A DNA stretch of 34,563 bases, taken from positions 1 through 34,563 of the IMG/VR virus record IMGVR_UViG_3300031727_000005; one strand, written 5' to 3'. The notes under the pieces are model-generated. The model searched no databases and was not told where the DNA came from. It worked only from the letters and a program-made list of their open reading frames with translations. This stretch comes from a virus. Position 1 is the stretch's first letter. Every line of letters starts with the position of its first letter. This document shows, piece after piece, positions 2,221-30,386 of the stretch. The translations under genes and the position numbers were made by a program.

Positions 2221-3626
2221 CCGATCAAGCTCTCCAGATCGTCGATTCTCGCGGCCGCCCGATCGTTGCGCAGAAGTCGTTTGGCTGCGACAACGGTGAG
2301 GGGTCTTGGCGCGGGCCGTTCACGTTCATTGGCGAGCTGGGCGGGCGTTATGAGCTGACGCCCTGGGAAGACGGCTGGCAGCGCAACCTCTCTCCGTGGC
2401 TGCAGCGCACCTGCGGTGCGGTCTATGCGTGCAAGAATGTGCAGGCGCAAGCCATTGCCACCATGCCTGCCTATCATCAGCGGAAACTGGAGAACGGCGG
2501 GCTGGAGACGATTACGACGTCCCCGCTATCACGTATCCTGCGCAATCCGAACGAGTACCAAACCTCGTCAGACTTCTTCCTGAACTTGCTGTTCGAGCTG
2601 CTGAGCTACGGCAACGCCTACGCCCTGGTTTTCCGCGACAAGTCGGAGCGCATCGAGTCGATCCACCTCGTGCCCTCGAATAGCACGCAAGCCTACATCA
2701 CGCCCGAGGGCGCGATCTTCTATGGCGTGGGCACTAACCCGATCATCGGCGAGCTGCAAGCGTTGATCCCGGCGCGTGATGTGCTGCACCTGCGGCTGCA
2801 CACCCCGCGGCATCCGTTGATCGGCGTCAGCCCGATCGAGTTTGCCACGATGGCTATCCAAATCAACACCGCGATCGGCAGTAACCAGGCGGCGTTCTTC
2901 TCGAATATGAGTCGACCGAGCGGAGTACTGACCACGGACGAAAAGCTGACCAAGGAGCAAATGGAGGCGTTGCGAAACGCTTGGTACGAGAAGAGCCGTG
3001 GACTGGCGACGGGCGAGGTGCCTGTGCTCAGTTGGGGGCTGAAGTGGAACCCGATGACGGTTACCAGCCAGGACGCACAGCTGATTGAGGCGTATCGGAT
3101 GTCCATCGAGGACATCGCTCGTGTCTACCGTGTTCCGCTGGCCCTGATCGGCGACTACACGAAGGCGACCTACAACAACGTCGAGCAGCTCATCAACCAA
3201 TGGTTGTCGACGGGGCTCGGCTTCCTGATGACGCACATCGAGCAGGCGTTCGGTCGACTGTTCCGCCTTCCTCCTGATGAGATGATGGACTTTGACACCG
3301 ATTCTCTGCTCCGGACGGACTTTGAAAATCGACTGAAGACCCTCGGCAACGCGATCACGACGGGGCTCATGTCCCCGAACGAGGCGCGCCGGCGCGAGCG
3401 GTTGCCCGCGGTCGAGTTTGGCGAGGAGCCTCGTGTCCAGCAACAGGTTGTGCCGCTGTCGCAGATCGGGCGGATGCCGGAAGCTCCGCCCGCCCCGCCT
3501 GCGCCTGAGCCAGCGCCGGCTGCGGAGCCCTCTGAAGAAGACACACAGCGCAACTTCCTGGTGGAAGCTCAGAAGAAAGCCAGCGCCAAGGCCGCGTTAC
3601 TGCAAAGCATGGGACTCGCAGCATGA
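2217..3626 (+). CDS. Portal protein (HK97-family)
   Basis: This 469-residue protein has the features of the Phage_portal family. The N-terminal region contains a PLSRILRNPNE stretch and a following helix ending in LLSYGNAYALVFR. The central part has a LIGVSPIEFA motif, and a later helix region carries IARVYRVPLALIGDY followed by the TYNNVEQ segment typical of HK97 gp3-like portals. The dodecameric portal sits at one capsid vertex and is the channel for DNA packaging and exit. The C-terminal tail (about 420-445) is Pro/Ala-rich and ends in a short charged helix. Here the portal comes after protease and capsid, whereas in many HK97-like phages it precedes them. The call is secure. Confidence 0.95.
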   Translation: MTDQALQIVDSRGRPIVAQKSFGCDNGEGSWRGPFTFIGELGGRYELTPWEDGWQRNLSPWLQRTCGAVYACKNVQAQAIATMPAYHQRKLENGGLETITTSPLSRILRNPNEYQTSSDFFLNLLFELLSYGNAYALVFRDKSERIESIHLVPSNSTQAYITPEGAIFYGVGTNPIIGELQALIPARDVLHLRLHTPRHPLIGVSPIEFATMAIQINTAIGSNQAAFFSNMSRPSGVLTTDEKLTKEQMEALRNAWYEKSRGLATGEVPVLSWGLKWNPMTVTSQDAQLIEAYRMSIEDIARVYRVPLALIGDYTKATYNNVEQLINQWLSTGLGFLMTHIEQAFGRLFRLPPDEMMDFDTDSLLRTDFENRLKTLGNAITTGLMSPNEARRRERLPAVEFGEEPRVQQQVVPLSQIGRMPEAPPAPPAPEPAPAAEPSEEDTQRNFLVEAQKKASAKAALLQSMGLAA

Positions 3627-4675
3627 GCGACTTCGATACCCGGCACCTGGTCCAAGCGACGGGAGAGATCCTTCGCGAGCAGCGTGAGCAGATCAACACC
3701 GATTTGTGGTCGCTGAAAGAGCAGATCCTTGAGCTGAAGGATCTTCACGGCGCGGAGGTTGAGAAGACCCGCGGCGATTTGCTGACTCGTATCGACGACC
3801 TGAACCACCGCTACGAAGCGCTCAGCGCTAAGCTTCGCGCCGTGCCCGAGGACCGGGGCGAAGAGATCGCCGAGCTACGTGGGCGGCTCCTGCAATTGGA
3901 GCGCACGCCTGGCCCGCCCGGTAAGGATGGGAAGGATGGTGCCTCCCCCGATGTCGAGGACGTAGCGAACGTCATTGTCCTGCGGCACGCCGACCGTCTC
4001 CGGGGCGAGCAGGGCCCGGTGGGTGCGCAGGGCCCCGTCGGCGGCACCGGCGCTCCCGGCAAAGACGCAGATCCCAACGCGGTCGCGGACAGCTTGTTCG
4101 AACGCCACGGTGCTGCACTCCGCGGCGAGCCCGGTCAGTCGGTTTCCTGTGACGAGGTCGCCGCCGAGCTGAAGCAGGACCAGCAGTTCCTGACGCTTGT
4201 CCGCGGCGAGCCCGGTCAGTCGGTTTCCTGCGACGAGGTCGCCGTCAAGCTGAAGCAGGACCAGGAGTTCTTGACGCTTATCCGCGGCGAGCCCGGCAAG
4301 TCAGTCTCCCGCGATGAGGTCGCCGCCGAGCTGAAGCAGGACAAGGAGTTCCTGACGCTTGTCCGCGGCGAGCCCGGCAAGTCAGTCTCCCGCGATGAGG
4401 TCGCCGCCGAGCTGAAGCAGGACCAGGAGTTCTTGACCATCGTCCGCGGGGAGAAGGGTGAACCCGGACAGTCGGTCTCCCGCGACGAGGTCGCCGCCGA
4501 GCTGAAGCAGGATCAGCAGTTCCTGGCCATCATCCGCGGTGAGCGCGGCCCTGCGGGCGAGCGCGGCCCCGAAGGTCCTGTTCCCGATATCACTGCCTTA
4601 CTCGAAGCCTCGATGGCAGAGTTCCGTCAGCGTGAGATGGCCGAAATCAAAGCCGTGTTTGCCCGCTATGCTTGA
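3623..4675 (+). CDS. Collagen-like repeat protein with N-terminal coiled coil, probable virion fibre
   Basis: This 350-residue protein starts inside the portal stop (ATGA). Residues about 10-90 are charged heptads consistent with a coiled coil. Gly-X-Y collagen-like blocks appear at about 96-106, 130-150 and 305-320. Between them, residues 167-304 consist of five tandem repeats. Each repeat joins a short GEPG collagen turn to a helical SVSxDEVAAELKQD segment ending in a hydrophobic FLTLV-type step. This alternating collagen and helix architecture is typical of trimeric phage fibres. The position directly after the portal, together with the head-fibre-like motif in the next gene, favours a fibre on the head or neck over a tail-tip fibre, but that is inference. 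The exact attachment is unknown. Confidence 0.8.
   Translation: MSDFDTRHLVQATGEILREQREQINTDLWSLKEQILELKDLHGAEVEKTRGDLLTRIDDLNHRYEALSAKLRAVPEDRGEEIAELRGRLLQLERTPGPPGKDGKDGASPDVEDVANVIVLRHADRLRGEQGPVGAQGPVGGTGAPGKDADPNAVADSLFERHGAALRGEPGQSVSCDEVAAELKQDQQFLTLVRGEPGQSVSCDEVAVKLKQDQEFLTLIRGEPGKSVSRDEVAAELKQDKEFLTLVRGEPGKSVSRDEVAAELKQDQEFLTIVRGEKGEPGQSVSRDEVAAELKQDQQFLAIIRGERGPAGERGPEGPVPDITALLEASMAEFRQREMAEIKAVFARYA
4121..4534 (+). repeat. Five tandem coding repeats (4 x 81 bp + 1 x 90 bp)
   Basis: Units begin at 4121, 4202, 4283, 4364 and 4445, each opening with CGCGG(C/G)GAG. The first four are 81 bp (27 residues). The fifth is 90 bp because one extra Gly-X-Y triplet has been inserted. Units are nearly identical in DNA, not only in protein, so recent duplication or gene conversion is likely. 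Positions that vary include the Cys/Arg before DEVA and the Gln/Lys after GEPG. Confidence 0.9.
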
Positions 4676-5942
4676 CGACCTTACAACTCCCGGCGGTCTA
4701 CTTGCCGAAGAAATCGCGAAGCTCACTACGCGCCGGATCGAGCGGGCGGTTGCTGAGATCGAGGTTCCAGCCGGCAAAGACGGGCTCGGCTTTGACCTTA
4801 AGACTTATGCCAAGGGGCAGGTCTATCGCGAGGGCGATTATATCGCCACCGCCTGGGGCAAGATCTATGTTGCCGTGCGTGACACCGCGGATGCTCCGCG
4901 CAAGTCCGATGCGTGGAAGCGCGTGGGTCCTTGGGGGTTGGAGTTTCTCGGCTTAAAGCCGGAGGACGTTAACACGCTGGAGTGCGGCGACCTCTACATC
5001 GACGGCGGCAGCCTGTTTGGTGTGCTCCCCGACGGGCGCGTCAAGATGCTCGTGCAGCGGGGTAAGGAGGGCAAGCAAGGCCCCGCGGGCAGGGACGGCA
5101 AAGACGGGCGCCACGGGGCGAGCATTATCGCTGGAGTCGAAATTGAGAACGGTATCAGGCTTCGCAGCGACGATGGAACCGATATCGACGTTCCGCTTCC
5201 CATGTTGCATGAGAAGATTTATGGCATCGTCGAAACGGTGGCGAAGAATACTACTAACGCCACGTTAAAGGCGTTTTTCGAGGCAATAGAGGTAGACGAC
5301 GAGGCGGTAGCTGTTCGCGCGCATCGTGGTCCCTGGTTACCCGGCACAAGCTATAGTAAAGGCGACTTAGTCAACCGCGGTAACGCGCTTTACCTATGCA
5401 CGGCCGCCCAAGTAGCCGGGCAGGTAATGTCGTATGATAATTGGCGTAAGATTGCTGGCGGAAGCGGCGGCAATGGCTCAGGGGGAGCCCTGTATGAACT
5501 GCCGGTGGCGTCTGAAACGGAGCTTGGCGGAGTCAAAATCGGTTCAGGCATTTCGGTGTTGGCCGACGGCACGATCTCTACAGCGGCTCTGCCTGGAACA
5601 GGCACAGATCTAGCCTACACGCCGTCAACGCGGTTGCTGGAATCCAGCAGCGGCAATGATGTAACGTTGCCGTTAGTTGTAGCTGGTGGTAACGCAGGCT
5701 TGATGGAGGGAGCGCAGGCAGCACAGTTGGCAGATCACGAGAGTAAGCTCTCTACTATTGACGCCGATGAACTGGCGGCGATCAATGGGGCGAACGCGCC
5801 AAGTGCTGGCAACGTGTTTGCGACGATGGACGATGTGGCTGCCGCGGGCGGCGTGACGGCTCCACCATCTGACCCTGGAAGGTATTTTGCTTGGAAAGAC
5901 GGTGCTTGGGTCGATATAACCAACAAGATCATAAATCCATGA
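4668..5942 (+). CDS. Second collagen-like fibre protein with carbohydrate-binding-like modules
   Basis: I start this 424-residue protein at the ATG that overlaps the previous stop by 8 bases. A longer in-frame start would put 43 implausible residues over the preceding gene. Two segments (about 50-90 and 220-265) share a Y..GD.V...G..Y pattern ending in a Trp, resembling small chitin/cellulose-binding (CBM5/12-like) folds. A Gly-X-Y block lies at about 131-150. Near residue 286 is an ELGGVKIGSGI stretch followed by a DGTIS turn, the hallmark repeat of phage head-fibre proteins (Phage_fiber_2-like). It probably forms a trimeric fibre together with the upstream collagen-like protein. The glycan-binding role is inferred from domain resemblance only. 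Confidence 0.75.
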   Translation: MLDDLTTPGGLLAEEIAKLTTRRIERAVAEIEVPAGKDGLGFDLKTYAKGQVYREGDYIATAWGKIYVAVRDTADAPRKSDAWKRVGPWGLEFLGLKPEDVNTLECGDLYIDGGSLFGVLPDGRVKMLVQRGKEGKQGPAGRDGKDGRHGASIIAGVEIENGIRLRSDDGTDIDVPLPMLHEKIYGIVETVAKNTTNATLKAFFEAIEVDDEAVAVRAHRGPWLPGTSYSKGDLVNRGNALYLCTAAQVAGQVMSYDNWRKIAGGSGGNGSGGALYELPVASETELGGVKIGSGISVLADGTISTAALPGTGTDLAYTPSTRLLESSSGNDVTLPLVVAGGNAGLMEGAQAAQLADHESKLSTIDADELAAINGANAPSAGNVFATMDDVAAAGGVTAPPSDPGRYFAWKDGAWVDITNKIINP

Positions 5943-6451
5943 ACATATTGATTGGTTTTCTTCTGTCGTTGTTTGTTGGGTCCGCATTGGCTGCGGAAGG
6001 GGACGTCCCCATTGAGCAAAGCAATGGAAGTATTACCACGCAAGCCATTAGCGGCGATGTCACGCTCACAGCCACAGGTGTTGCGACGGTGCAGGCTGTT
6101 AATGGCTCGGCAACGCGCCCGTGGCAGTATGAACGGACGATCACAAATCCAGCAGATACTGACGATTGGCTGTGGTTCAAAGCTGACACGGCCTTGACGA
6201 TGACGGCTGTTGACTGTGTAGCGCAAGGTACAACGCCAAGTATCACTGTGGATATTCAGGAGTGCGATGCCGATGGCGGTAACTGCGCGACAAGCCTGTC
6301 GTCCGCTATTACTTGCGATGGCGGAAACGATACCGGGACAATTGTTGACTCAGTAATCGATTCAGGTGATTGGATGAAGATATTGCTCGGTGCACCGAGC
6401 GGAACGGTTGATGCGATTTCCGTTCAAATCTATGGCACAAAGGCGCTGTAA
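5939..6451 (+). CDS. Secreted or signal-anchored protein of unknown function in the fibre cassette
   Basis: I chose the ATG inside the upstream stop (ATGA). It gives 170 residues opening with a clear signal peptide (hydrophobic ILIGFLLSLFVG core, likely cleavage after ALA at about residue 18-19). The rest is a beta-rich, Thr/Asp-rich domain with several cysteines (VDCVAQG, ITCDGG and similar), ending in a VSVQIYGT-like strand. Similar beta domains occur as C-terminal pieces of phage and metagenomic virion proteins, but I cannot name the family. A Sec signal is unusual for a virion protein. Either it is exported to the host envelope during infection, or the hydrophobic N-terminus serves in particle assembly. 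Confidence 0.7.
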   Translation: MNILIGFLLSLFVGSALAAEGDVPIEQSNGSITTQAISGDVTLTATGVATVQAVNGSATRPWQYERTITNPADTDDWLWFKADTALTMTAVDCVAQGTTPSITVDIQECDADGGNCATSLSSAITCDGGNDTGTIVDSVIDSGDWMKILLGAPSGTVDAISVQIYGTKAL

Positions 6452-7185
6452 TGATTAAAAATCGCTTTTTGCTTACTCTGATACCGAGTCTGGCGCTTGG
6501 TCTTCTGATGCAACCTGCCAACTTGCAGGCGGATTTCATTCGTGGGACTGGCGGAGGGCCCCCGGCTGGCTTCACTTGTGGCACCTCGACGGTCGATGGC
6601 GTCGGCGGCATCACCTATGGCACGGTGGTTGGTGAAGATGGCAACTGCTGGTTGGATCGCAATCTTGGCTCACCACAGGTAGCAACAGCGTCTAACGACT
6701 CGGATGCTTACGGCTATTATTACCAGTGGGGGCGTTTATCAGATGGGCATCAGATAGATACTTCTGGCACAACGACCACTTTATCAACAACCGACATACC
6801 TGGGCATGGTGACTTTATTACGCCCCCAGCTAATCCATACGATTGGCGAGATCCAGGAAACAATGAACTTTGGCAGGGTGTTTCTGGGATTAACAATCCC
6901 TGCCCGTCTGGCTTTCGTCTTCCGACAAAAACCGAGTGGGATGCGTATATAACGGCTGCAAATATTATAGATCAAGAGACAGCGTATACAAGTAATCTTA
7001 AAATCACTGCTACTGGTCGGCGTCAATATGATGGTGTTTTTGACAGACGAGGATCGCGCGGGTATTACTGGAGTTCAGACATTTTGGGCGGTGAGAATTC
7101 ATGGTACTTGAATGTCGCCGCTGTTGTTGAGACCTCATATTGGTATAGAGGTTATGGTAATACTGTGCGCTGCATACGAGATTAG
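6451..7185 (+). CDS. Secreted FISUMP / C-type-lectin-like protein
   Basis: This 244-residue protein starts within the TAATG junction with the previous gene. The first ~27 residues form a signal peptide (FLLTLIPSLALGLLM core, probable cut after LQA). The remainder matches the Fibrobacter succinogenes major paralogous (FISUMP, TIGR02145-like) pattern: CWLDRNLG near 70, AYGYYYQWGR near 90, a DWR..NNELWQG stretch, NNPCPSGFRLPT near 150, YYWSS near 208 and a terminal GNTVRCIRD. This family is predicted to have a C-type-lectin/formylglycine-enzyme-like fold, the same class of scaffold used for receptor binding in several phages. Its base composition is clearly more AT-rich than the head genes, which hints at separate acquisition. 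Ligand and location are unknown. Confidence 0.8.
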   Translation: MIKNRFLLTLIPSLALGLLMQPANLQADFIRGTGGGPPAGFTCGTSTVDGVGGITYGTVVGEDGNCWLDRNLGSPQVATASNDSDAYGYYYQWGRLSDGHQIDTSGTTTTLSTTDIPGHGDFITPPANPYDWRDPGNNELWQGVSGINNPCPSGFRLPTKTEWDAYITAANIIDQETAYTSNLKITATGRRQYDGVFDRRGSRGYYWSSDILGGENSWYLNVAAVVETSYWYRGYGNTVRCIRD

Positions 7186-7188
7186 ACC

Positions 7189-10100
7189 ATGACCACTGTT
7201 GTTCCTTCCTATTCCCTGCAACTGGCAGCAGTGCTGGAAGACACCCCAGGTGTCACGCCGACTAATCCCGTTTTTAACCTGTGGCGGACGACGGGCGAGG
7301 GCCTCGTGTTTACGCCGCAGACCCAGGACAATATCGAGCTTAATGGCACCCGCCGGATGCGCAAGCCCGGCAACGTGACCGGTGTATCGGTCGCGGGGGA
7401 CATCAATTTCGAGTTGGCTGAGTTTCCTGCGTTGTTTGAAGCCCTTGCCGGCGTGCTGGCAAACGACTGGGGCATCTGCCCGGTTACTGGGACGCCAGCC
7501 GGCGCGATCAAAAACGCCACATACCTCAGTGTTGGTAAAACGCTGCGAACTTATACTATTGAGAAGCGGTTTCCCAACTTGGCTTTTGTGCGCGGTGACG
7601 CGGTCACGGCTAGTGTGACTTCGGCAGCACCGGGCGCGACAGCTGAGATCACTGTAGCGCCGCCCGCCAGTGGTAGTACCTACACAGGCACTGGGCTGAT
7701 CGTGCTGGATATCGCCGTGGACGGCGGTATCTCGCAGCATGTCGCGGTTGACGTGAATGTGGGAGACGATGAGAACGTCGCCGCTACGGCGTTGGCGACG
7801 GCTATTACGGGGCTTAACGGCGTGACGGCAACGGCGGTCGGTCCGGTAGTGACGATCACGCCAGATACCGCTGTGGTGGATAAGTTAAACCTGCGTGCAG
7901 GTCCAGATGAATATTTCTATCAACGGTTCAAAGGGACGACCTATAACAGCTTTTCGCTTAATGTCGAGCCCAACCAGATAATAACGGGCAGAGTCGGTAT
8001 CGTCGGCGGCACACCTGAGCTGGATGTGGTGCCGTTATCCGGTGCGGCCTATATACCGGCAGGCTCCAAGCCTTTGTTCACGGCATCGGAAGTGCTGGAA
8101 TTGACCCTTGGTGACCTGACGGTCAATTCGCACTGCTTTTTTAATTTTAGCATTAACCTGGATAGTGCCAATCGGGGCATCGCTTGCGTGGGTACACGAG
8201 GCGAGCGTGAAGTGGTGCTCGGTAAGTTAGCGGTCGACGTGAATGGCGAAGTCTATTTCGCTGACCAAACGGTGTTGGAGAAATTACTGGATAACGAGAC
8301 TGTCGGCGACGGCACGGTGACGTTGACCAATAGCGATGGGAACTATCTACGTTTTGATTTCTTCGATCTCAAACCGATCGCGGGGCAAGCGATAGCGGGC
8401 GGGGAGGGACAGGACGTGACTGTTCCCATGACCTTACAGCCGACTCCTGCGGTCGTCTGTTCAGGCCCAAGCTCGTCGTGGGAATCTCCGCTGCTCATCA
8501 TCAGCGAGAATGCTCTATCGGGTTGCATTGGCATCTGTGTCTCAGGCGTTCTGTCGGCATCTTCGACCGAAGGCACAAACCCTGACGCTCTGACCCTCAT
8601 CATCAACGCAACCGACGACAATGGCGACCCCATCGCCTGGAGCATCTCGGAGAGCCTCACGTGGGCGAGCTTCTCTCCGGCTTCTGGTACGGGTACGACT
8701 TCCGTAACCGTTACGTTGGACCCGACGGGCGTGAGCCTGGCACCGGGGACGTATGAGGGCGAGTTTGTGATCACGGCCGCGGGCGCGGCGAACAGCCCCT
8801 ACACGGGCACGCTGAGCTTGACCCACTACGCGACGCCCGTCCTAAATGTTACGCCCGTGTCGTTGGACTTCGGGCAGATCATCGAGGGGGATGGGCTCCC
8901 CGCTGCGCGGACCTTGACCGTTACCAACTCGGCGAGTCCGGCCGGCCCGATGACATTCACGGCAGCGGGGCCGAGCTGGCTCACTGTGTCGCAGTCCGGC
9001 GCGACGGTGACAGTGCGTCCAAATACGGGCGCCATTGGTACGTACAGCGACGATGTGACGATCACGTCAGCATCGGCTTCCAATAGCCCGTGGACCGTCC
9101 CAGTGACGTTCGATGTGCAGGAGCAGCCGGCGATTATCGTTCTGAGTGCATCGTCACTACTGTTTGCCGCCGAACCGGACAGCGCACCAGCAAATCAGAC
9201 CGTTACGGTAACAAGCGGAGGAACTACTCCCGTAAACTTTACGGTATCCGATGATGCTCCGTGGCTTACTGTGGTGCCGACGAGCGGCACCGACGGTCAG
9301 GTGTTGACGATCAGCTGCTCCGCACAAGCAGTCGAGGACACGTACAACGCGACGATTACCGTGACGGACCCGGCGGCAATCAATAGCCCACAGACGATAG
9401 CCGTCAATTACGCTGTCAGTGTCAATCCCATCGTCGGGGAGAACCTCAACAGCGCCGACGCAATGTCGTTGACCACCAACGATTACGGGGACATCGCCAA
9501 CCAGGGTTTCGCCACCGAGCAGTCGGTTAACGTCGGTGAGACCATTGACTTCAAGGTGCACGGCGACTGCCAGGTCATCGACATCTTCCGGTGCGGGTAC
9601 TACGGGGGCGGTGTCTACCGGAAGGTCGCCACGATCTCGAACACACCTACCAGCCAGCCGGCGGCTGTCACGATCCCGGACACCAACGGGGCAACGACCT
9701 GTGCCGCTTGGTCTGTGACGGCGAGCTGGGACGTTCCTACAGATGCCGTATCTGGCATGTATATCGCCGTGGTGCGTAACGCGGCGCTCAACGACTTCAG
9801 TAACATCATTTTCTTTGTGCGCGAGGATGCCCGTGAGGCCGACATTGTGGTGAAGGTCTCGGATTCGACCTGGGGCGCGGCTTATAACCCCTTCAACACG
9901 ATGGGCAATGCTGCAACCATCGAGAACGGTGCGGACCTGTACGGTGTTGGCTACTTGGGCTCGATTGAAACGCGTAGTACGCAGGTATCGTTCGACCGAC
10001 CGCTTATTACTCGAAACAACGTAGTTAATCACCCCTACAACTACGAGTTGGGATTAATTTCTTTCTTGGAGGAGCAGGGTTACAACGTCAAATACGTGAC

Positions 10101-13100
10101 TTGCTACGACCTGGACATCAATCGCGGTATTGGCACGCCAAAGGTGCTGATCAGCGCAGGCCACGATGAGTACTGGTCGCAGAATATGCGCGATCGGGTG
10201 ATTGCTCTGCAGAACGCCGGCACGCACATCCTGTGGATGTCGGCCAATGACATCTTCTGGCGCATCCGGTATCTGAACAGTCGAGTTATTGAATGCTTTA
10301 AGGACACGATGAACGGTCCAGGCGGGCATGTCGGCGGCACGCCATTAGACCCAACAAGCTGGACGGGTACGTGGCGTGATACTCGGTGGGCGGGGCGCAA
10401 GCCTGAGAACGAGATCTTCGGCACGACGTTCCGCATGAACGGCATCTACAACTACAACGCCGTTATCTCGACCGACCCTTACGGTCAGCATCCCCTGTGG
10501 CGCGGGACCGCAGTAGAGTCAGCCAATACGACGCTAACGAGCCACATCGGCTTCGAGGCGAACACTTACGATCCGCCGTCTCAGATGTGGGTCGGTCGAG
10601 CAGCAGCGACCTTGATCAACATCAACGGTGCCTACGCCAACGACGACGGGCAGTTTTACGACGGCAACGGCAACCTGGATTGGGGCATAGTGGTATCCCG
10701 CTATGAGCCGACGCAGGGTGTCAACGTCTCGTTTGCTTCCATGGACTGGATCTGGGGGCTCAGTAACAATCAGCTCGGCCAGGCGGTTGAGAACGTGACG
10801 ACGCGGCAGGCGACGGTCAACCTGCTGGTGGATGCCGGTGTGGCAGCGGCTACGCTGGCGACCGGGCTGTCGGAGCCCACACCTTTGTCGTTGAGCTACT
10901 ACGGTGTCGGCGACTCGGCGCTGCCGAATGTTGATGGAAGCTTTGACTACTTCCAGGACTTCGATGGCGACTGGGTCACCGGGCTGTCTTACAACCCTGG
11001 CAAGGTCGTTGTGAACCGCTGGCGGACGTTTGAGGCTCTTTCCGGGCACACGTCTGCTGCCGGCACCGAGCCTGGTGTAGGGGCCTCTTGGCAGACTGTC
11101 TGGCGTGAGGTGAACCCGGTCCTGGCACCGCCGACGCCGGCAACCATCGTGCTCGACAAGGCGTCACTGACGTTCAACGCGCTGCCGGATGCCGCTCCCA
11201 ATACTCAGACCATCACAGTCTCGAATAGCGGCGAGACGCCTCTGAGCTTTACAGTATCCGACGACGCTGCCTGGCTCACAGTAACGCCCACAAGCGGTAC
11301 GGATGGCACGGTACTAACAGTGTCTTGTGCAGCGCAGTCGGTTGAAGACACCTACACCGGCACAATCACAATCACAGATCCGAATGCCAGCAACAGCCCT
11401 CAGACGGTCTCTGTGACTTATACGGTAGCCACCGCCGCACCGGGCGAGGTGTTCTTCGTCGGAGATCCGACTCCACCGAGTACAGGAAATGATGGTGTAG
11501 ATTACACGCTTGGAATGCAGTTCTACTCCTTTACGACTCCGGGGCAAGTAACGGCAATTCGTGCTTATAGGCCTGCAGGTGCGGATAGTGGAAGAACGCT
11601 GACTGGAAGCATTTGGTCGGAAAGCGGTACGTTGCTTGGATCGGCTACGTTTGGTGACACTTCCGCTGGTGGCTGGTTCGAGGCAATCTTGGCTGGGCCA
11701 ATTGCGATAGTGCCAAGCACTTATTATGTTGTCGGTGTTAGTCCGATCCGAGGGTATGCGTATGAGCTTAGCTACTTTGATGGTTCACCTTTCTTTACGA
11801 ATGGCGAAAATTTATATGTTGATGCGATAGGGGGAAGGCTAACCGATCCTCCGGGTTTTCCAGATAGATCCACAACTACAGCATTCTTTGTCGACGTAAA
11901 GTTTGTTGCAGGAGTTGTATCGACCTCTATCGTTCTCGATAAAACATCACTAAACTTCAATTCGGAGCCAGATGCTGCTCCTACTACTCAGACCATTACG
12001 GTGTCAAATCCTGGTGAGACGCCCTTGAGCTTCACGGTGTCCGATGACGCTGTTTGGCTTACAGTGACGCCCACGAGCGGCACAGACGGGACGGTGCTAA
12101 CAGTGTCTTGTGCAGCGCAGTCGGTCGAGGACACCTATACCGGTACGATCACGATCACCGACTCAAATGCTGTAAACAGCCCGCAAACGGTCTCTGTGAC
12201 CTATGCGGTAGCAGCACAAAGTGCAACAATTCAGAACCTTTATCCGACTAATCCGGCGCCAGATGTTGTTGAAACTACCGATACTGATCGATATACATTA
12301 GGGTGCGCGTTTACCGCTGACGTGCCTGGACAGGTAGTCGGGGTGAAGTTCTGGAGACCAGCAGGGGACACCGGGCCTTGCTCAATTGGACTTTATGCAG
12401 AAAGTAGTGGGTTTGGAGTAGCGCCACTGTTAGCAAGCAAAACGGGAATAGACACGTCCGCTGGTGGTTGGATAGAGGCTTTCTTTGACACGCCTGTTTC
12501 GCATACTCCTGGCGTTACCTCGTTTGTTGCTTGTTTCAATATGGGCACAAATCAAGGTTACGGAGTAATGCCGGCTTTATTTAACACGAATTTGGTTGTG
12601 GGCAATTTAACGGCACCCGGATTGCCGATTTACAATAATACATTTGTAGTTGGAACATCCCTAGCACCTACCACTGATCATTCTGGTAATCAAAACGGAT
12701 ATTGTGTAAGTCCAATTTTTGCTACAGGAGCTGTACCAACTTCTATCATTCTCGATAAAACATCGCTGAGCTTTGGTTCGGAGCCAGATGTTACTCCCAG
12801 TACTCAAACCATTACGGTTTCAAATCCTGGTGAGACGCCTTTGAACTTCACGGTATCCGACAACGCTGCCTGGCTTACAGTGACGCCCACAAGCGGCACA
12901 GACGGGACGGTGTTGACAGTATCTTGTGCGGCGCAGACGGTCGAGGACGTTTACACCGGTACGATTACCATAACCGATTCAAACGCCAGCAACAGCCCTC
13001 AGACGGTCTCTGTGACCTATGCGGTGGCGGCAGCGCCACAAGGTGCGGTGTTCTTCGACACCACGCCTGTCGCGGTATCCAATGAGCCGGGCACGAACTA

Positions 13101-14022
13101 CACGATGGGGACTCTGCTTATCCCATCGGGTACGGACGGCTTGATAAGCGGTATTCGGGCCTACAGGCCGCCTGGAGTGGATGCTGGAAATACCATTAGT
13201 GCCGTGTTGTGGTCGGCTCCGACAATTGGGGATAACTGGAAAATTATTTTTGAACGAGATTTTCCGGATACCTCTGCTGGCGGGTGGTTTACCGTGCAGT
13301 TCGATGCTCCGATTGCAGTAGCGGATGGGGCGCTGCTGGTTCCGGCAATCAGGACAATAAGTGATTATTCTTATGAAGCTGGATATTTCGCAAACGCCGT
13401 TACAAAGGGAGATATTCTAGGTCCAAGTAATGCGGGTCGTTATTCAGATACACTGAATGGTCTGCCATATGTTCCAAGTGCATTCGCCTATTTTGTCGAT
13501 TACGTATTCCAAGCACAATCGACGGTCAGGCAGGTTATGTTCAACGACAACTGGATTCCGGCGTTATCGGCATCGGACCCAGGTGTCGATTACACCTTTG
13601 GGACGCTTTTCCATGTAGCCGAGCGTGATGGCAATATTGTCGGATTCCGCGCTTACCGACCGGCCGGTGCAGATAGTGGGGTAACTCTGACTGGCTATCT
13701 CTGGACTGATGCCGGAGTGCTGCTTGGCTCGAAGCAATTTGGCGATACCTCGGCAGGCGGTTGGTTTGAGACCTTATTAGATACACCGATTCCCGTTACG
13801 GCTGGCTCGGCATATGTTGTCGGCATAAGCCCAATACAAGAGTTTGTGTATCAAGATGGGGTATTTTTGGACAATGCTCGGTTTGGCGGCAACTTGTATG
13901 TAAATGAGTATAGCGGCAAATTTATCGGGACAGCCGGCACGTTCCCGACACAATCGCCTGATTTTGGACTAAGGCAGCGCGCTTATTTTGTCGATGTGTT
14001 GTTTGAGGCAGACCCATTGTGA
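7189..14022 (+). CDS. Giant tail-tube-protein fusion with Ig/BACON, dimethylformamidase-beta-like and DUF4082-like domains
   Basis: This protein has 2277 residues. Residues 1 to about 440 align end-to-end with the phage's own tail tube protein at 19,295; both have WRTTGE, INFELA and KRFPN motifs. Three Ig/BACON-like domains follow (about 455-747). Residues ~750-1225 resemble the N,N-dimethylformamidase beta-subunit family: an RCGYYGGGVYRKV strand, then GHDEYW at 991-996 and Asn1020. A CBM-like segment (about 1226-1318) precedes three Ig + DUF4082-like pairs (starting at 1320, 1581 and 1853) and a final DUF4082-like domain (about 2112-2277). Each DUF4082 copy has a DTSAGGW motif. No signal peptide is seen. 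It probably enters tails as a minor tube subunit carrying a huge outward appendage. Domain names are from pattern recognition; the fusion itself is plain in one uninterrupted frame. Confidence 0.85.
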   Translation: MTTVVPSYSLQLAAVLEDTPGVTPTNPVFNLWRTTGEGLVFTPQTQDNIELNGTRRMRKPGNVTGVSVAGDINFELAEFPALFEALAGVLANDWGICPVTGTPAGAIKNATYLSVGKTLRTYTIEKRFPNLAFVRGDAVTASVTSAAPGATAEITVAPPASGSTYTGTGLIVLDIAVDGGISQHVAVDVNVGDDENVAATALATAITGLNGVTATAVGPVVTITPDTAVVDKLNLRAGPDEYFYQRFKGTTYNSFSLNVEPNQIITGRVGIVGGTPELDVVPLSGAAYIPAGSKPLFTASEVLELTLGDLTVNSHCFFNFSINLDSANRGIACVGTRGEREVVLGKLAVDVNGEVYFADQTVLEKLLDNETVGDGTVTLTNSDGNYLRFDFFDLKPIAGQAIAGGEGQDVTVPMTLQPTPAVVCSGPSSSWESPLLIISENALSGCIGICVSGVLSASSTEGTNPDALTLIINATDDNGDPIAWSISESLTWASFSPASGTGTTSVTVTLDPTGVSLAPGTYEGEFVITAAGAANSPYTGTLSLTHYATPVLNVTPVSLDFGQIIEGDGLPAARTLTVTNSASPAGPMTFTAAGPSWLTVSQSGATVTVRPNTGAIGTYSDDVTITSASASNSPWTVPVTFDVQEQPAIIVLSASSLLFAAEPDSAPANQTVTVTSGGTTPVNFTVSDDAPWLTVVPTSGTDGQVLTISCSAQAVEDTYNATITVTDPAAINSPQTIAVNYAVSVNPIVGENLNSADAMSLTTNDYGDIANQGFATEQSVNVGETIDFKVHGDCQVIDIFRCGYYGGGVYRKVATISNTPTSQPAAVTIPDTNGATTCAAWSVTASWDVPTDAVSGMYIAVVRNAALNDFSNIIFFVREDAREADIVVKVSDSTWGAAYNPFNTMGNAATIENGADLYGVGYLGSIETRSTQVSFDRPLITRNNVVNHPYNYELGLISFLEEQGYNVKYVTCYDLDINRGIGTPKVLISAGHDEYWSQNMRDRVIALQNAGTHILWMSANDIFWRIRYLNSRVIECFKDTMNGPGGHVGGTPLDPTSWTGTWRDTRWAGRKPENEIFGTTFRMNGIYNYNAVISTDPYGQHPLWRGTAVESANTTLTSHIGFEANTYDPPSQMWVGRAAATLININGAYANDDGQFYDGNGNLDWGIVVSRYEPTQGVNVSFASMDWIWGLSNNQLGQAVENVTTRQATVNLLVDAGVAAATLATGLSEPTPLSLSYYGVGDSALPNVDGSFDYFQDFDGDWVTGLSYNPGKVVVNRWRTFEALSGHTSAAGTEPGVGASWQTVWREVNPVLAPPTPATIVLDKASLTFNALPDAAPNTQTITVSNSGETPLSFTVSDDAAWLTVTPTSGTDGTVLTVSCAAQSVEDTYTGTITITDPNASNSPQTVSVTYTVATAAPGEVFFVGDPTPPSTGNDGVDYTLGMQFYSFTTPGQVTAIRAYRPAGADSGRTLTGSIWSESGTLLGSATFGDTSAGGWFEAILAGPIAIVPSTYYVVGVSPIRGYAYELSYFDGSPFFTNGENLYVDAIGGRLTDPPGFPDRSTTTAFFVDVKFVAGVVSTSIVLDKTSLNFNSEPDAAPTTQTITVSNPGETPLSFTVSDDAVWLTVTPTSGTDGTVLTVSCAAQSVEDTYTGTITITDSNAVNSPQTVSVTYAVAAQSATIQNLYPTNPAPDVVETTDTDRYTLGCAFTADVPGQVVGVKFWRPAGDTGPCSIGLYAESSGFGVAPLLASKTGIDTSAGGWIEAFFDTPVSHTPGVTSFVACFNMGTNQGYGVMPALFNTNLVVGNLTAPGLPIYNNTFVVGTSLAPTTDHSGNQNGYCVSPIFATGAVPTSIILDKTSLSFGSEPDVTPSTQTITVSNPGETPLNFTVSDNAAWLTVTPTSGTDGTVLTVSCAAQTVEDVYTGTITITDSNASNSPQTVSVTYAVAAAPQGAVFFDTTPVAVSNEPGTNYTMGTLLIPSGTDGLISGIRAYRPPGVDAGNTISAVLWSAPTIGDNWKIIFERDFPDTSAGGWFTVQFDAPIAVADGALLVPAIRTISDYSYEAGYFANAVTKGDILGPSNAGRYSDTLNGLPYVPSAFAYFVDYVFQAQSTVRQVMFNDNWIPALSASDPGVDYTFGTLFHVAERDGNIVGFRAYRPAGADSGVTLTGYLWTDAGVLLGSKQFGDTSAGGWFETLLDTPIPVTAGSAYVVGISPIQEFVYQDGVFLDNARFGGNLYVNEYSGKFIGTAGTFPTQSPDFGLRQRAYFVDVLFEADPL
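11146..11427 (+). repeat. Ig/BACON coding repeat, copy 1
   Basis: This is the first of three ~282-bp copies within the giant gene that encode near-identical 94-residue domains. They run from a IVLDKxSL start, through AWLTVTPTSGTDG and SNSPQTVSV, to a terminal TV strand. It is followed by a DUF4082-like domain, so the larger repeating unit is about 0.8 kb. Confidence 0.9.
11929..12210 (+). repeat. Ig/BACON coding repeat, copy 2
   Basis: This second copy lies 783 bases after the first. Long stretches are identical in DNA to copy 1, notably around the TSGTDG and SCAAQSVEDTY codons. The DUF4082-like domain after it is strongly diverged from the others, so the Ig-coding part is kept uniform while the DUF4082 part varies. 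Confidence 0.9.
12745..13026 (+). repeat. Ig/BACON coding repeat, copy 3
   Basis: This third copy lies 816 bases after the second. It shares the same boundaries and nearly the same DNA sequence, with Thr in place of Ser in the AAQ(S/T)VED segment. Two DUF4082-like domains follow it with no further Ig copy between them. Confidence 0.9.
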
Positions 14023-19294: not shown

Positions 19295-20626
19295 ATGCCT
19301 GTCATTTCTGCAGATACCCTGCAACTATCGCACGCTGTCGAGACATCGCCAGGCATACTGCCTGCCAGCCCGGTTTTCCACACTTGGCGCACTACCGGCG
19401 AGTCCCTGGTGTTCGCACCCCAGACCAGCGATTCCGCCGAGCTGGGCGGCCCTGGACGGTTCCAGAAGCCGGCCACCGTCACGGGCACCACGATCTCCGG
19501 CTCAATCAATTTCGAGCTGGCTAAGTTCCCGGCGTTGGAGGAAGCCATGGCGGGCGTTTTCGCTGCCAACTGGGGCGAGTGCCCGTTGACAGGGGCGGTC
19601 GGCGGAGGCATTGACTCGGTCAACGATATTACGGTCGGCAAGACTTTGAAGACCTTCACGATCGAGAAGCGTTTTCCAAACCCGGCCTTTGTTGCCGGCA
19701 CGCTCCCGACCGCGTCCGCGGGCAGCACGGGCACTCAGACTTCTGATGTCACGATCGGCGCTGCTACTGCGACGGGCACAGGAACCGTCAAAGTTACGGT
19801 CAAGACCAGCACCGGCGCAGAAGCGACGGTACTGGCACCGATCAATGTGGGCGACGATGAAGCCGCTGTGGCCTCGACAGTCGCTGCGGCTTTGACGGCG
19901 GACGGTATCACGGCTACTGCTTCGACTAACACAGTCACGATCGACGCGGGGGCTGGTAACACTATCGTTACCTTGACGGCTGTCGCGGGTTCTGACGAGT
20001 TCTTTTACCAGCGGTTCAGCGGAGTGACCTATTCAGCGCTTTCGCTGTCGGTTGCGCCCAATCAGACCATCACGGGCAGCGTTGATATCATCGGCGGTGT
20101 GCCGTCCCTTGATACCCTGCCGCTCAGCGGGGCGACTTATCAGTCCGCCGGATCGAATCCGATTTTTACCTCTCCGGAGGTTATGGAGCTGTCGGTCGGG
20201 CAGGCGCTGGGAGTAGGTACGCACTGCTGGACCAGCTTGAACATCAATATTAACTCGCAAAACAGGGGTATCCCCTGTATCGGGTCCAAAGGCGATCGTG
20301 AAGTTGTGCTCGGCACATTGACGGCCGAGGTGTCCGGTGACGTGTACTTCAGTGACCAGGATATCCTTGACGCCCTGCTGAACAACAAGACCATCGGCGA
20401 TTCGGTTATCACCTTGACCGATACGAACGGCAATCTCTATCGGTGGGATTTCTTTAACATGAAACCGACCGCGGGGCAGGTCGCAGCGGGTGGCGCGGGG
20501 CAAGACTTGACGATTCCGCTGACGCTACAGCCCACTCCGGTTTCTGTGTGCGAGGATGGTTCGGGTAACGTTTGGGAGAGCGGGTTTATCCTGTCCACGG
20601 AGAACACCGCGCCGACGTTGCCGTGA
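19295..20626 (+). CDS. Tail tube protein (major tail protein, Phage_tube_2-like)
   Basis: This 443-residue protein has a GGAGA ribosome-binding site. Motifs include THTWRTTGE-like text near 30, INFELAKFPALEEAMAGV near 70-90, TVGKTLKTFTIEKRFPN near 110, and a C-terminal AGGAGQDLTIPLTLQPTP block. A ~100-residue insertion (about 150-230) carries repeated Thr/Ala/Val strands and a VNVGDDE-like INVGDDE motif. It probably forms an Ig-like surface domain. Hexameric rings of this protein stack to form the non-contractile tail. It is the stand-alone paralogue of the N-terminal domain of the 2277-residue giant. Its place between terminator and chaperones marks it as the main tube subunit. Confidence 0.88.
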   Translation: MPVISADTLQLSHAVETSPGILPASPVFHTWRTTGESLVFAPQTSDSAELGGPGRFQKPATVTGTTISGSINFELAKFPALEEAMAGVFAANWGECPLTGAVGGGIDSVNDITVGKTLKTFTIEKRFPNPAFVAGTLPTASAGSTGTQTSDVTIGAATATGTGTVKVTVKTSTGAEATVLAPINVGDDEAAVASTVAAALTADGITATASTNTVTIDAGAGNTIVTLTAVAGSDEFFYQRFSGVTYSALSLSVAPNQTITGSVDIIGGVPSLDTLPLSGATYQSAGSNPIFTSPEVMELSVGQALGVGTHCWTSLNININSQNRGIPCIGSKGDREVVLGTLTAEVSGDVYFSDQDILDALLNNKTIGDSVITLTDTNGNLYRWDFFNMKPTAGQVAAGGAGQDLTIPLTLQPTPVSVCEDGSGNVWESGFILSTENTAPTLP

Positions 20627-20656
20627 TCGGTTGCGGAAGCATGGGCCACCGGTGCC

Positions 20657-20734
20657 GTGGGAGCGCCCGGTAGCGGGGTACTGGCTCATGTTTTCGCTCT
20701 ATCTTTTGGCGCTCCACCTATATAGGCGCTCTAC
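20657..20734 (+). promoter_or_regulatory. Possible switchable RNA structure upstream of the tail chaperone
   Basis: GTGGGAGCGCC (20657-20667) is complementary, with one bulged G, to GGCGCTCCAC (20708-20717). It is also complementary, with one wobble, to a second copy, GGCGCTCTAC (20725-20734), that abuts the chaperone ATG. The 109-base gap is one of the largest in the late operon, and the chaperone lacks a good Shine-Dalgarno. Alternative pairing could hide or expose the start. No protein or promoter is apparent here. Confidence 0.4.
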
Positions 20735-20735
20735 T

Positions 20736-21167
20736 ATGCAATTCGACACAACTGGCCTTGAGAACTACATCACCGACGAGAGCCTCGAAAACAGCAAAGG
20801 CGTTTGGTTGAAGTTCCCCGGCGACCGTTCCTTCCACGTCCTCCGGGCGGGCGGCAGTAACCATGCTTTCGGTCGTCGCTTCCAGGCGCTGATCAAGCCC
20901 TACCGCAAACAGATGGATCGCGGCACGCTCGACCCTGATACCTCCGACGAGATCTTGCGCCGAGTCTACGCCGAGACTGTCGTCAAGGGATGGGAAGGCA
21001 TCAAGGACCCGATGGGCACGGAAATCCCGTACAACGTTTCCACGGCGATGGAGTTTTTCAAGGCGTTCCCGGAGCTGTTCGGCGAGATCGTCGATCTGGC
21101 ATCTTCCTACGCCACGTTCCAGAACGCTCAGGCAGAGGAGGCGCAGGAGGTGCTGGGGGAAGCCTGA
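20736..21167 (+). CDS. Tail assembly chaperone, short (zero-frame) form
   Basis: I start at the ATG giving 143 residues (MQFDTTGLENYIT); longer in-frame starts include Arg-rich, unlikely sequence. The protein is a small alpha/beta domain with LKFPGDRSFHVLR early and a helical C-terminal half (STAMEFFKAFPELFGEIVDLA) ending in a Glu/Ala-rich tail. It lies between tail tube and tape measure, as for lambda gpG-type chaperones that bind the tape measure and help the tube assemble around it. Its 3' end overlaps the frame that encodes the extended C-terminal part, so a second, longer form is expected. Confidence 0.75.
   Translation: MQFDTTGLENYITDESLENSKGVWLKFPGDRSFHVLRAGGSNHAFGRRFQALIKPYRKQMDRGTLDPDTSDEILRRVYAETVVKGWEGIKDPMGTEIPYNVSTAMEFFKAFPELFGEIVDLASSYATFQNAQAEEAQEVLGEA
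21155..21161 (+). other. Candidate -1 ribosomal frameshift site
   Basis: The run G-GGG-GAA lies two codons before the zero-frame stop. A -1 slip here moves ribosomes into a frame open for another ~320 bases. The P-site GGG codon can re-pair perfectly; the A-site pairing is imperfect, so this is a weaker slippery site than lambda's GGGAAAG. A nearby alternative cannot be excluded. Confidence 0.5.
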
Positions 21168-21481
21168 AATGGGCGCTGACCTACGGTAAGCAGCATGAGG
21201 CGCTAGAGAACATGGCGGCAGCCGGCATGATTGTGCCGGCGATCGAGAGCCGCCCTTCTCTGGTAGGGTTCGGGTGGCTGTGGGAAGCGTACCAGGCCCT
21301 ATCCACGTGCCGGGCGATAGGGATGTCGGTGGGGCCGATACCGTGGTCAGCGGTCCAACTTTACGCGGATGCGCATCGACTGTCCGAAGAGGAGGCATGG
21401 CTTCTTCACCGGGTAGTTCGCCACATGGACGAGGTCTATCTGGATCACGTTCACAGTAAAGCGAAAGCAAAGGCCAAGTGA
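21161..21481 (+). CDS. Tail assembly chaperone, C-terminal extension read by -1 frameshift (gpT-like)
   Basis: This frame has no ATG, GTG or TTG between the zero-frame stop and its conserved-looking start (WALTYGKQHEALENM). The first usable ATG would drop that part, so frameshift expression as a fusion of about 245 residues is the best explanation. The segment is helical with a SLVGFGWLWEAYQALSTCR core, a GPIPWSAVQLYAD stretch and a Lys/Ala-rich end. This matches the pattern of gpT-like chaperone extensions that act on the tape measure. It ends one base before the next gene's ATG. Confidence 0.7.
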   Translation, partial: SLKWALTYGKQHEALENMAAAGMIVPAIESRPSLVGFGWLWEAYQALSTCRAIGMSVGPIPWSAVQLYADAHRLSEEEAWLLHRVVRHMDEVYLDHVHSKAKAKAK

Positions 21482-27725: not shown

Positions 27726-28215
27726 TCAATACAGTCTACGAATTGCCGATAACCTCGTCACAGCGCCTCAGTATCTCATTGAGATGGGCTTTGAGCAGCC
27801 GTTGTACTTGACTAGCGGACCGGACTTAACTTGGGACGGGCACGACTGGAAAGCGGCGCCTATCGGTGTCAGCGGTATTGACCTGGACGTGACGGCGCAG
27901 CAGAACGTGTCGTTGGAGATTGCCAATCATGACAGAGTGTTTGGCGCTCTGGTGATGTCCGAAAATGCGCACGGCCAACCGGTCAAGATCTGGCTGACTT
28001 ATCGTGAGCCACTCTTTGAGCCGATGCTATTGGCAGACGGACAGATGGACGGGGCGGTTATCGGGGAATTTGTCCGGATCAATGTCATCTCCCGGTCAAC
28101 TGCCTATGGCACGACCCCGCGGATTGTTTGCGCACCGCCACTGTTCAACCATCTGCCTGCGCCGGGATCTATTATTGAGTTGGGCACTGTCAAAATCACC
28201 ATAGAGTCTCGTTGA
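27718..28215 (+). CDS. Minor tail protein, tail-tip component
   Basis: This 165-residue protein is beta-rich, with LYLTSGPDLTWDGHDWKAAPIG and repeated short strands. It resembles the BR0599/DUF2163-like proteins found between tape measure and tip protein in many siphophages (a typical feature is an L...G..l.wdG..w turn). The stop is overlapped by the J-like gene (TGATG). It likely forms part of the ring connecting tube to tip. The family call is moderate. Confidence 0.65.
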   Translation: MPSQYSLRIADNLVTAPQYLIEMGFEQPLYLTSGPDLTWDGHDWKAAPIGVSGIDLDVTAQQNVSLEIANHDRVFGALVMSENAHGQPVKIWLTYREPLFEPMLLADGQMDGAVIGEFVRINVISRSTAYGTTPRIVCAPPLFNHLPAPGSIIELGTVKITIESR

Positions 28216-30386
28216 TGTCTACTCGACTTCCTTATGAGTATCCAGGCTGGGTTCCGCCGGCGCCGGACTCCAGCCAACCGGGTCGTACCCCTATCAACAA
28301 CAGCGCGCGGGATACGCGCGAAGAGTCCATTGCTGCGGCAATGGCTAGCCCGTTGCCGATTGCTTACGGGCGCAATATTCTCAAGCCGCTGATATTTGCG
28401 GCGCAGGTTTACAACAGCTATCTGTACCTCGGCTGTGCGTGGTGCCTTGGGGAAATCGAAGAGATCGTGCAGATCTACGATGGCGATGAGCCGATCACTT
28501 CCGTATGGGTTAAAAACAACTACACCGGCGTCGCTACGCAGTTGCCGGACCCTTTTCTGGTCACCGCTATACCCGACTACAATGATACGCTGGTGACGAC
28601 GATCCGCGGTGAGACAGTATCCGTTGCCTACTCCGTATTGGTGATCCCTGTCACCGCGGATTTCCCGGATCTGTCGGCCGAGGTGCTGGGTAAGCGCAGC
28701 TGGCGGCACTCCACGATCGATCTGTTTGAAAACGCTTTACCTCGTGTTCCGGACACGACAGCCGTCTGGTATAAGAACGAAGAAGATCCCGTCGCCATTC
28801 CCGAGGCGATTGACGGCAACGATGCTACTTATCCTCCGGACTTTATGCAAATTCTCTATCTTTTTCCATCCGATAACAACCAGGACTTAGTGGTATCTCC
28901 TGATGTGATCGTAGTGGAGGCGCTGTTACCTCAGACCGTTCAAGCGGAGCAACAAGTTGTTCTAAACTACCGCGATGCGCGCCCTAACAGACTTTATCAG
29001 TTCAGCCCTATTCTAGAAAGCGCTGATGCACTCGTTGAATACCGAGACGCCACAGACGCGTGGCAAACGTTGGTGCAGACAACCATTGGCCGCCCTGTTA
29101 AATACGGTCAAGAAATCACTACTTCTACCGTATATCAATTTTGGAATATCACGTTTCCTATTGCGACTCCGATAGACGTGACGGGTATTCGGCTTACGCT
29201 GTCTAATACAACGTGGTCAAATTGGTACGGTCAAGAATATGTCTCTGTCAATGGCGCAGATCCTATCTGGCGAGACGTTAAAAGATGGCCCTATATTTCA
29301 CCTTCGGAGTTTGAGCTTTACGCCTTTTTCAGTGTTCAGTTTCAATACAGTAACAACGCGGCTCTGTGCCTGGCAGACCTTATTGAAGACAAAGCCTATG
29401 GCTTAGGTATTCCAGTTAACCAACCGGCTTTGAAAGAACTTGTCGAATGGTGTGAAGAGCAGATGCCCGATGGCTCGCTGCGTCATCAACTTGATTTAGC
29501 ACTTACCCAGCGAAACCGGATCGAGCAGTACATAGAGACGCTGAGAATGTACGCTGAATGCTACGTTGTAAAAGAAGGCGATGAGGTCTTCTTGATACCG
29601 GATCGCCCCTCGCCCGTGGCGGATGTCTTGACTGAAGACGACATGGTGGAAGGGACGTTTACGCTTCAGCAGCAGTCGCAGCGGGATAAGCCCAACGTCG
29701 TTGCAGTCAGCTACACAGACCCCGTCGATACGCCAAACTGGAAGACCCCGCAAAATACACAGTACCATCCGGATCTTGCAACTGGCCTCGTCGAGTACCG
29801 CCGAAATGATCTGCGACTGGAGGGGTTGCATGATGAAAGGCCCGCGCGTCGCGCAGCGATCAAGCGGTTGAATTACTTCACGCTTGTCAATCTTTACGTC
29901 GAGTGCGTCGTGATGGACAAAGCCGTGCGTTGGCGCCTCGGGGACGTGATCCAGGTCAACCATCAATGGGGCTTGGAGAATAAGCCGATGCGGCTTGTCG
30001 GGATCAATGCGATCAGCGCGGGCCGGTATCGCTGCTCTTTTGAAGAGTACGATCCGAAAATCTACAGCGACACGATTGAGACGGTCCCCAGCTACCCGGA
30101 CACGGCGCTTGCTGCGCCCTCAAACGTCCCGACGGTGGAGATCCTAAGTGCTAGCGTAGATGCTGAAGGGGTTGTTTTTGTGGAATGGACTCCGGCTACG
30201 CTATATCCGTACCCGCACGAGTTCGAGCTGCAAGTTGGCCCCAGCGTCGTGGTCACGGAGACCACGACCGGACAAGTTTCGGGACTATCCTCGGGGACTT
30301 ACGATGTCACGGTGCTCGTGCGCGGTACGTGGCAGTCAGTGGTCTACACCGGGCAGCCCACCGCAGCGGTGCAGGTCACCATTTGA
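28215..30386 (+). CDS. Tail tip / central fibre protein, J-like, with C-terminal FN3-like domain
   Basis: I start at the ATG of TGATG, giving 723 residues. PIAYGRNI near 50 followed by CLGEIEEIVQIYDGD near 75-90 is the hallmark of J-like tip proteins (gp27-fold-like hub). Later segments (LADLIEDKAYGLG near 395, VVKEGDEVFLIPDRPSP near 455, RLNYFTLVNLYVECVV near 555) fit the Phage-tail_3 group. A fibronectin-type-III-like domain occupies about 638-723 (VEILSASVDAEGVVFVEWTPA, then a YDVTVLVRG strand). It probably forms the tip trimer and contacts the host. This protein is the last gene on the + strand; no separate downstream receptor-binding gene is present. Confidence 0.85.
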   Translation: MSTRLPYEYPGWVPPAPDSSQPGRTPINNSARDTREESIAAAMASPLPIAYGRNILKPLIFAAQVYNSYLYLGCAWCLGEIEEIVQIYDGDEPITSVWVKNNYTGVATQLPDPFLVTAIPDYNDTLVTTIRGETVSVAYSVLVIPVTADFPDLSAEVLGKRSWRHSTIDLFENALPRVPDTTAVWYKNEEDPVAIPEAIDGNDATYPPDFMQILYLFPSDNNQDLVVSPDVIVVEALLPQTVQAEQQVVLNYRDARPNRLYQFSPILESADALVEYRDATDAWQTLVQTTIGRPVKYGQEITTSTVYQFWNITFPIATPIDVTGIRLTLSNTTWSNWYGQEYVSVNGADPIWRDVKRWPYISPSEFELYAFFSVQFQYSNNAALCLADLIEDKAYGLGIPVNQPALKELVEWCEEQMPDGSLRHQLDLALTQRNRIEQYIETLRMYAECYVVKEGDEVFLIPDRPSPVADVLTEDDMVEGTFTLQQQSQRDKPNVVAVSYTDPVDTPNWKTPQNTQYHPDLATGLVEYRRNDLRLEGLHDERPARRAAIKRLNYFTLVNLYVECVVMDKAVRWRLGDVIQVNHQWGLENKPMRLVGINAISAGRYRCSFEEYDPKIYSDTIETVPSYPDTALAAPSNVPTVEILSASVDAEGVVFVEWTPATLYPYPHEFELQVGPSVVVTETTTGQVSGLSSGTYDVTVLVRGTWQSVVYTGQPTAAVQVTI

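Follow-up and report, generated by a model that had tools for sequence, protein, structure and literature searches.

The virus record IMGVR_UViG_3300031727_000005 (34,563 bases), analyzed here in full and referred to as the window, carries a gene whose product, P0001, fuses a tail tube domain to an arm of 1,834 residues in which Pfam recognizes Ig/BACON, DMFA2_C, and four DUF4082 domains. The tube domain is a paralog of P0002, the major tail tube protein of the same phage. The explanation we favor, and hold to be reasonably probable, is that P0001 is a duplicated minor tube subunit anchoring an arm with which the phage attaches to polysaccharide on the host surface and probably also alters it. 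In proposing this function, we infer the incorporation of the protein into virions, its copy number, its polysaccharide target, and its catalytic activity.

The fusion gene occupies positions 7189-14022 (+) and encodes a product of 239 kDa with a pI of 4.1. An original prediction for this DNA had described one frame of 2277 residues, and this description is borne out by a continuously open frame of 2,277 codons that begins with ATG. Its length alone rules out a chance frame. The domains are arranged as follows.

7189 to 8517, + strand: tail tube domain (Phage_tube_2), residues 1-443; PF18906 at 62.9 bits, 52% identity to the product of 19295-20626
8518 to 9129, + strand: two Ig/BACON-like spacers, residues 444-647; weak BACON-repeat similarity (39% over 82 residues), borders set by motif
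9130 to 9423, + strand: BACON domain, residues 648-745; 66% over 94 residues to the BACON domain at 1321-1420, PF19190
9424 to 10890, + strand: DMFA2_C region, residues 746-1234 (Pfam 797-1193); PF20254, E 1.8e-68
10891 to 11139, + strand: linker, residues 1235-1317; CBM5/12-like by eye only
11140 to 11442, + strand: BACON_2 domain, residues 1318-1418; PF19190, best stretch 1323-1412
11443 to 11922, + strand: DUF4082 domain 1, residues 1419-1578; PF13313, best stretch 1432-1567
11923 to 12219, + strand: BACON_2 domain, residues 1579-1677; PF19190, one of four stretches, placed by motif position
12220 to 12738, + strand: DUF4082 domain 2, residues 1678-1850; PF13313, one of four stretches, placed by alignment
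12739 to 13032, + strand: BACON domain, residues 1851-1948; PF13004, best stretch 1888-1943
13033 to 13518, + strand: DUF4082 domain 3, residues 1949-2110; PF13313, one of four stretches, placed by alignment
13519 to 14022, + strand: DUF4082 domain 4, residues 2111-2277, plus the stop codon; 46% over 157 residues to domain 1

Beyond the tube domain, Pfam thus assigns DMFA2_C (E = 1.8e-68), four DUF4082 stretches, and four BACON_2 stretches. The Ig/BACON, DMFA2_C, and DUF4082 entries of the predicted domain list are therefore all recovered. The CBM that had been proposed for residues ~1235-1317 is unsupported, as this linker has no Pfam match at E <= 0.01 and the resemblance is by eye only. A DUF4082 profile found no significant relative among solved structures, and the only mention of DUF4082 found in the open-access literature concerns a predicted secreted protein of Methylococcus. 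Codon usage is phage-like in the tube, Ig, and DMFA2_C segments (r = 0.74-0.88) and deviates in the last part of the arm (10891-14019; r = 0.55, GC3 0.50), which fits a later addition of that part.

The tube assignment rests on comparisons with the tube family and with the second tube gene of the window.

19295 to 20626, + strand: major tail tube protein P0002, in its normal place between the tail terminator and the chaperones

Residues 4-443 of P0001 align with P0002 at 52% identity over 440 residues (E = 2.8e-138), so the original claim that the first ~440 residues match the tube protein of the phage over its whole length was accurate, and the common fold predicted from this identity is not in doubt. 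Both proteins match Phage_tube_2 (PF18906; 62.9 bits for P0001 and 63.3 bits for P0002, with a cut-off of 27) as well as PHROG 290. Against an independent tube profile, for which 56 other viral sequences were used and neither window protein, they score 239.0 and 240.6 bits, respectively. In a tree of 32 tube proteins, the tube domain of P0001 and P0002 are sisters with support of 100/100, and a profile made from both window sequences matches the solved tube protein 8xan_B. The two also share an insertion about 100 residues long (around TGTG...NVGDDE...A) that is missing from most aligned relatives. AlphaFold2 prediction of P0001 residues 1-544 with P0002 gave a pLDDT of 36.5 on an alignment of two sequences, which is too few. 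Given the equal profile scores, the sister position, and the common insert, we conclude that this lineage underwent a duplication of its tube gene, after which the copy kept the sequence features of the family.

The window holds a single siphophage structural region. The order is capsid protein, portal, a fibre/adhesin cluster, the fusion gene, small genes, endolysin, head-tail adaptor, tail terminator, tube protein, chaperones, tape measure, and a J-like tip protein.

28212 to 30386: J-like tip protein gene, separate from the fusion

The tail assembly chaperone matches fall in two overlapping frames at 20556-21481, a layout usual for a programmed frameshift. By gene place, the slot between the terminator and the chaperones and tape measure belongs to 19295-20626, and for this reason we regard the fusion as a tube paralog rather than as the major tube gene. 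Its ribosome-binding site also appears weaker by eye than that of the major tube gene. Because the short copy both holds the normal place and has the stronger-looking ribosome-binding site, the fusion is probably the minor partner. The location of the fusion gene away from the tail module counts against the explanation that we favor.

The surroundings of the fusion gene are variable. Relatives found with the portal, which are 67-97% identical in that protein, have a common gene content as far as 5942, the end of the fibre gene. Where their contigs extend beyond this point, the contents are quite different (L005 encodes PKD and M14 carboxypeptidase proteins, and L011 a protein with BNR repeats), and this divergence places the fusion gene in a variable adhesin region. 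As far as these contigs reach, no tube gene was found on them. A portal-based scan of bacterial genomes for the host returned no relative. Several other features of the region merit mention. In the fibre pair at 3623-5942, a weak CBM5/12 match comes after collagen-like repeats, and the C-terminal part of the pair is swapped among the portal relatives. Directly preceding the fusion gene, 6451-7185 encodes a Fib_succ_major (FISUMP) domain protein, which is unusual for a phage structural cluster. The variable adhesin region of the close relative L005 encodes a zinc carboxypeptidase at 12630-13589 (Peptidase_M14, E 2.3e-37). Sec-signal-like hydrophobic N-termini are present on several proteins of the variable adhesin cluster (window 5891-7185, L005:8217-14006, and L010:8697-10685), an example being MIKNRFLLTLIPSLALGLLMQPANLQA at 6451. 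Such N-termini are odd for virion proteins, and perhaps these proteins are meant for export during infection.

Both the size of P0001 and the presence of a second tube gene stand out among tube-family proteins. In viral contigs, we inspected the best 80 of 252 relatives, which form a sample rather than a census, as the set includes many short contigs and several near-duplicates. Among the 82 frames compared (measured stop to stop and including the two of the window), the longest besides the fusion is 557 residues, compared with 2,278 for the fusion, and no second tube gene was found at any other locus in the best 80 of 252. Deposited phages yielded 126 matching records with one tube-family place in each. 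Single- and two-sequence scans with the tube domain found no relatives, and no relative with the same tube-arm join emerged in the scans run.

The DMFA2_C domain of the arm (PF20254) resembles the beta subunit of dimethylformamidase and scores 232.1 bits against a Pfam cut-off of 27. In the Paracoccus enzyme, iron is bound by Y399, Y440, and E521, H519 is essential, and N547 is drawn in the active site (PMC7686228). The candidate iron-site residues of P0001 are Tyr899 (position 9883), Tyr918 (9940), His992 (10162), Glu994 (10168), and Asn1020 (10246), and all five are unchanged in 14 relatives. A DMFA2_C profile of five sequences reaches dimethylformamidase (6lvb) and N-acetyl-(R)-beta-phenylalanine acylase (8huy), although weakly (E 1e-11 to 1e-15). 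Over the aligned stretch, Y399, H519, E521, and N547 of dimethylformamidase correspond to Y899, H992, E994, and N1020. The second tyrosine ligand, Y440, has no certain counterpart; Y918 may be the source of the second phenolate, but it aligns with Y435, five residues off. AlphaFold prediction of the domain with two phage relatives gave a pLDDT of 33.8, again with too few sequences. Overall DMFA2_C identity between phage and bacterial relatives is about 35-50%, and the invariance of the site residues at this level of divergence suggests selection on the metal site.

The order in which DMFA2_C is followed by Ig-type domains alternating with DUF4082 is common to P0001 and to the bacterial proteins L020 and L021, and plasmid proteins of Rhizobium and Methylobacterium (2,344 and 1,510 residues) follow the same plan with Ig/cadherin types and DUF4082. 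Proteins of this kind in Rhizobium, Methylobacterium, and Paenarthrobacter have the same domain order and candidate iron-site residues as P0001, but they lack a tube domain at the start and carry cadherin/Big Ig types where P0001 has BACON. Polysaccharide genes adjoin some of the bacterial relatives: an O-antigen translocase and exopolysaccharide biosynthesis in one case, export and pyruvyl transferase genes in a second, and a WecB-type glycosyltransferase with wecC in a third. Type I secretion genes adjoin one bacterial DMFA2_C relative. The Methylobacterium and Streptomyces relatives have no adjoining polysaccharide genes, which counts against a link to polysaccharide.

DMFA2_C also occurs in other phages. 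None of 50,697 deposited phage genomes matched the domain, the first DMFA2_C scan gave no match, and we found no paper in the open-access literature that places it in a phage. Nonetheless, the DMFA2_C scans brought out three further phage contigs. L029 encodes a 1,007-residue protein (3285-6308), located between capsid and tail genes, in which DMFA2_C is followed by an fn3 domain and a head-tail adaptor domain. The 946-residue protein of L028 combines DMFA2_C with Calx-beta and DUF4082 and is encoded near genes for a T7-type tail fibre, an endolysin, and a T7-type terminase. In L120, a DMFA2_C frame of 795 residues follows tail, endolysin, and head-fibre-like genes, close to where the contig ends. 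A single clade (100/98) unites the four phage domains, apart from the bacterial ones, for which the sampling consists of plasmids, and with that sampling the tree suggests a single phage lineage of DMFA2_C. Because L029 fuses the domain to a head-tail adaptor, DMFA2_C can be tied to a virion part, and this protein is the best independent evidence for such a tie.

A plausible route from these findings to a function can be outlined. Of the two tube gene copies, the one that follows the portal gene, within the variable fibre/adhesin cluster, is joined to a large arm. Through the tube domain, a minority of subunits would enter the polymerizing tail tube, whether dispersed between major subunits or gathered in a single ring of their own. 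Arms of ~190 kDa on every subunit would crowd, and hence sparse or single-ring use is more likely. The Ig/BACON spacers would lead the arm away from the tube's outer face, and we infer its outward display by likeness to the tube proteins of lambda, T5, YSD1, and SPP1 (PMC8718954). The DUF4082 and BACON repeats would provide a putative grip on host surface polysaccharide, where DMFA2_C, with its conserved metal-site residues, might hydrolyze an amide-like or ester-like bond, such as that of an N- or O-acyl group. More tentatively, and at somewhat less than an even chance, the phage DMFA2_C domains may represent an undescribed class of phage-borne, metal-dependent, surface-processing enzymes, predicted here to belong to one clade shared by phages and to be mounted on different virion parts, with the tail itself as the enzyme scaffold in our phage. 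The carriers would be a tube subunit in our phage, a head-tail adaptor in L029, and perhaps fibre-associated proteins in L028 and L120, an allocation that we offer with the same reserve.

It is also conceivable that the arm is purely adhesive, with the tube paralog displaying a binding appendage in which DMFA2_C is a folded, non-catalytic spacer or binding domain. Ig/BACON and DUF4082 repeats indeed make up most of the arm, known tube decorations bind glycans and do not cut them (PMC6669499), and a small subunit of the dimethylformamidase type was not seen among the annotated genes. The five invariant site residues, retained across phage and bacterial relatives of such modest identity, suggest selection on a metal site and so speak against a non-catalytic spacer, and we consider a solely adhesive role rather unlikely. 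Somewhat doubtful as well, and to a similar degree, is the possibility that the paralog assembles as a single hexamer, located at the tail tip or neck, as a collar-like or baseplate-like adhesion device, instead of being scattered along the tube. Such a ring would agree with the use of a separate gene in place of read-through of the major tube gene, six ~190 kDa arms in one ring would be easier to accommodate than many, and the tube fold is used by tail-tip proteins of other siphophages (PMC11445458). However, the tube domain of P0001 shows no visible specialization, being as good a match to the tube family as the major protein is, and the sequence gives no sign of a position on the tail.

The original prediction had weighed a minor tube subunit with an adhesive or enzymatic arm against a tail-tip protein that uses the tube fold as its anchor. 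The former gains from the finding of a true tube paralog and of both adhesive-type and enzyme-like domains in the arm. The latter is less supported, as the phage has a separate J-like tip gene and the match to the tube protein is at the level of sequence, beyond fold. Finally, the fusion might be an assembly chimera, or have arisen recently when part of a tube gene was joined by accident to a bacterial gene, and be functionless in this form. The failure to find a relative with the same join and the differing codon usage of the C-terminal repeats would be in keeping with such an origin. Yet the frame stays open across the join, which falls at a domain border, and codon usage is phage-like from the tube domain through DMFA2_C. 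Moreover, with 48% of its positions different from P0002, the tube domain cannot be a misplaced copy, conservation is seen both in this domain and at the DMFA2_C site, and DMFA2_C groups with other phages and not with bacteria. On these grounds, we judge an artifact or accident to be very improbable.

Decorated tail tubes are known from several systems. The tube proteins of SPP1 (gp17.1*), lambda, T5, and YSD1 carry C-terminal Ig/FN3 domains on the tube exterior, and in SPP1 only part of the subunits carries the extension (3:1), as we envision for P0001 (PMC8718954). Unlike P0001, these proteins add one small domain of about 100 residues, and there is no second tube gene (PMC8718954). The expectation that tube proteins carry one or two Ig domains holds for such cases but is incomplete, because tube proteins of lactococcal 936 phages (about 470-530 residues) have a carbohydrate-binding TpeX extension (PMC6669499). 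Like P0001, they consist of a tube core with a C-terminal extension, and TpeX lies beyond an Ig domain, holds a CBM, and binds host cells (PMC6669499). However, they are far shorter, arise by programmed frameshift from the same gene, and lack an enzyme-like domain (PMC6669499). P0001 has the core and the extension without the frameshift from the major gene; its carrier is a separate paralog read in one continuous frame. The neck passage structure proteins of 936 phages are also large accessory virion proteins with domains away from the tail tip, including CBM and pectin/alginate-lyase-like or esterase-like domains, but they are anchored at the neck by their own collar domain and not by a tube subunit (PMC6669499). 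The large subunit of dimethylformamidase (6lvb; PMC7686228), for its part, belongs to a cellular multimeric enzyme, and its Y440 is the ligand for which P0001 has no certain match. Thus, the principle of tube decoration is already known; what is new is that the carrier is a separate paralog, that it is so large, and that its cargo is enzyme-like. The arm of P0001 outweighs the tube domain fourfold and goes well beyond TpeX.

Tailspikes and fibres are the main known carriers of phage enzymes that open slime or capsule layers. The phage described here may hold a surface-binding or surface-cutting tool on its tail tube. If a tube subunit is truly the carrier, many copies could be distributed along the tail while the tip is left free for the receptor. 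The four phage-borne DMFA2_C domains with intact candidate iron-site residues provide a testable enzyme candidate, and a comparison of the two paralogs offers a natural way to test the limits on the cargo of a tube subunit.
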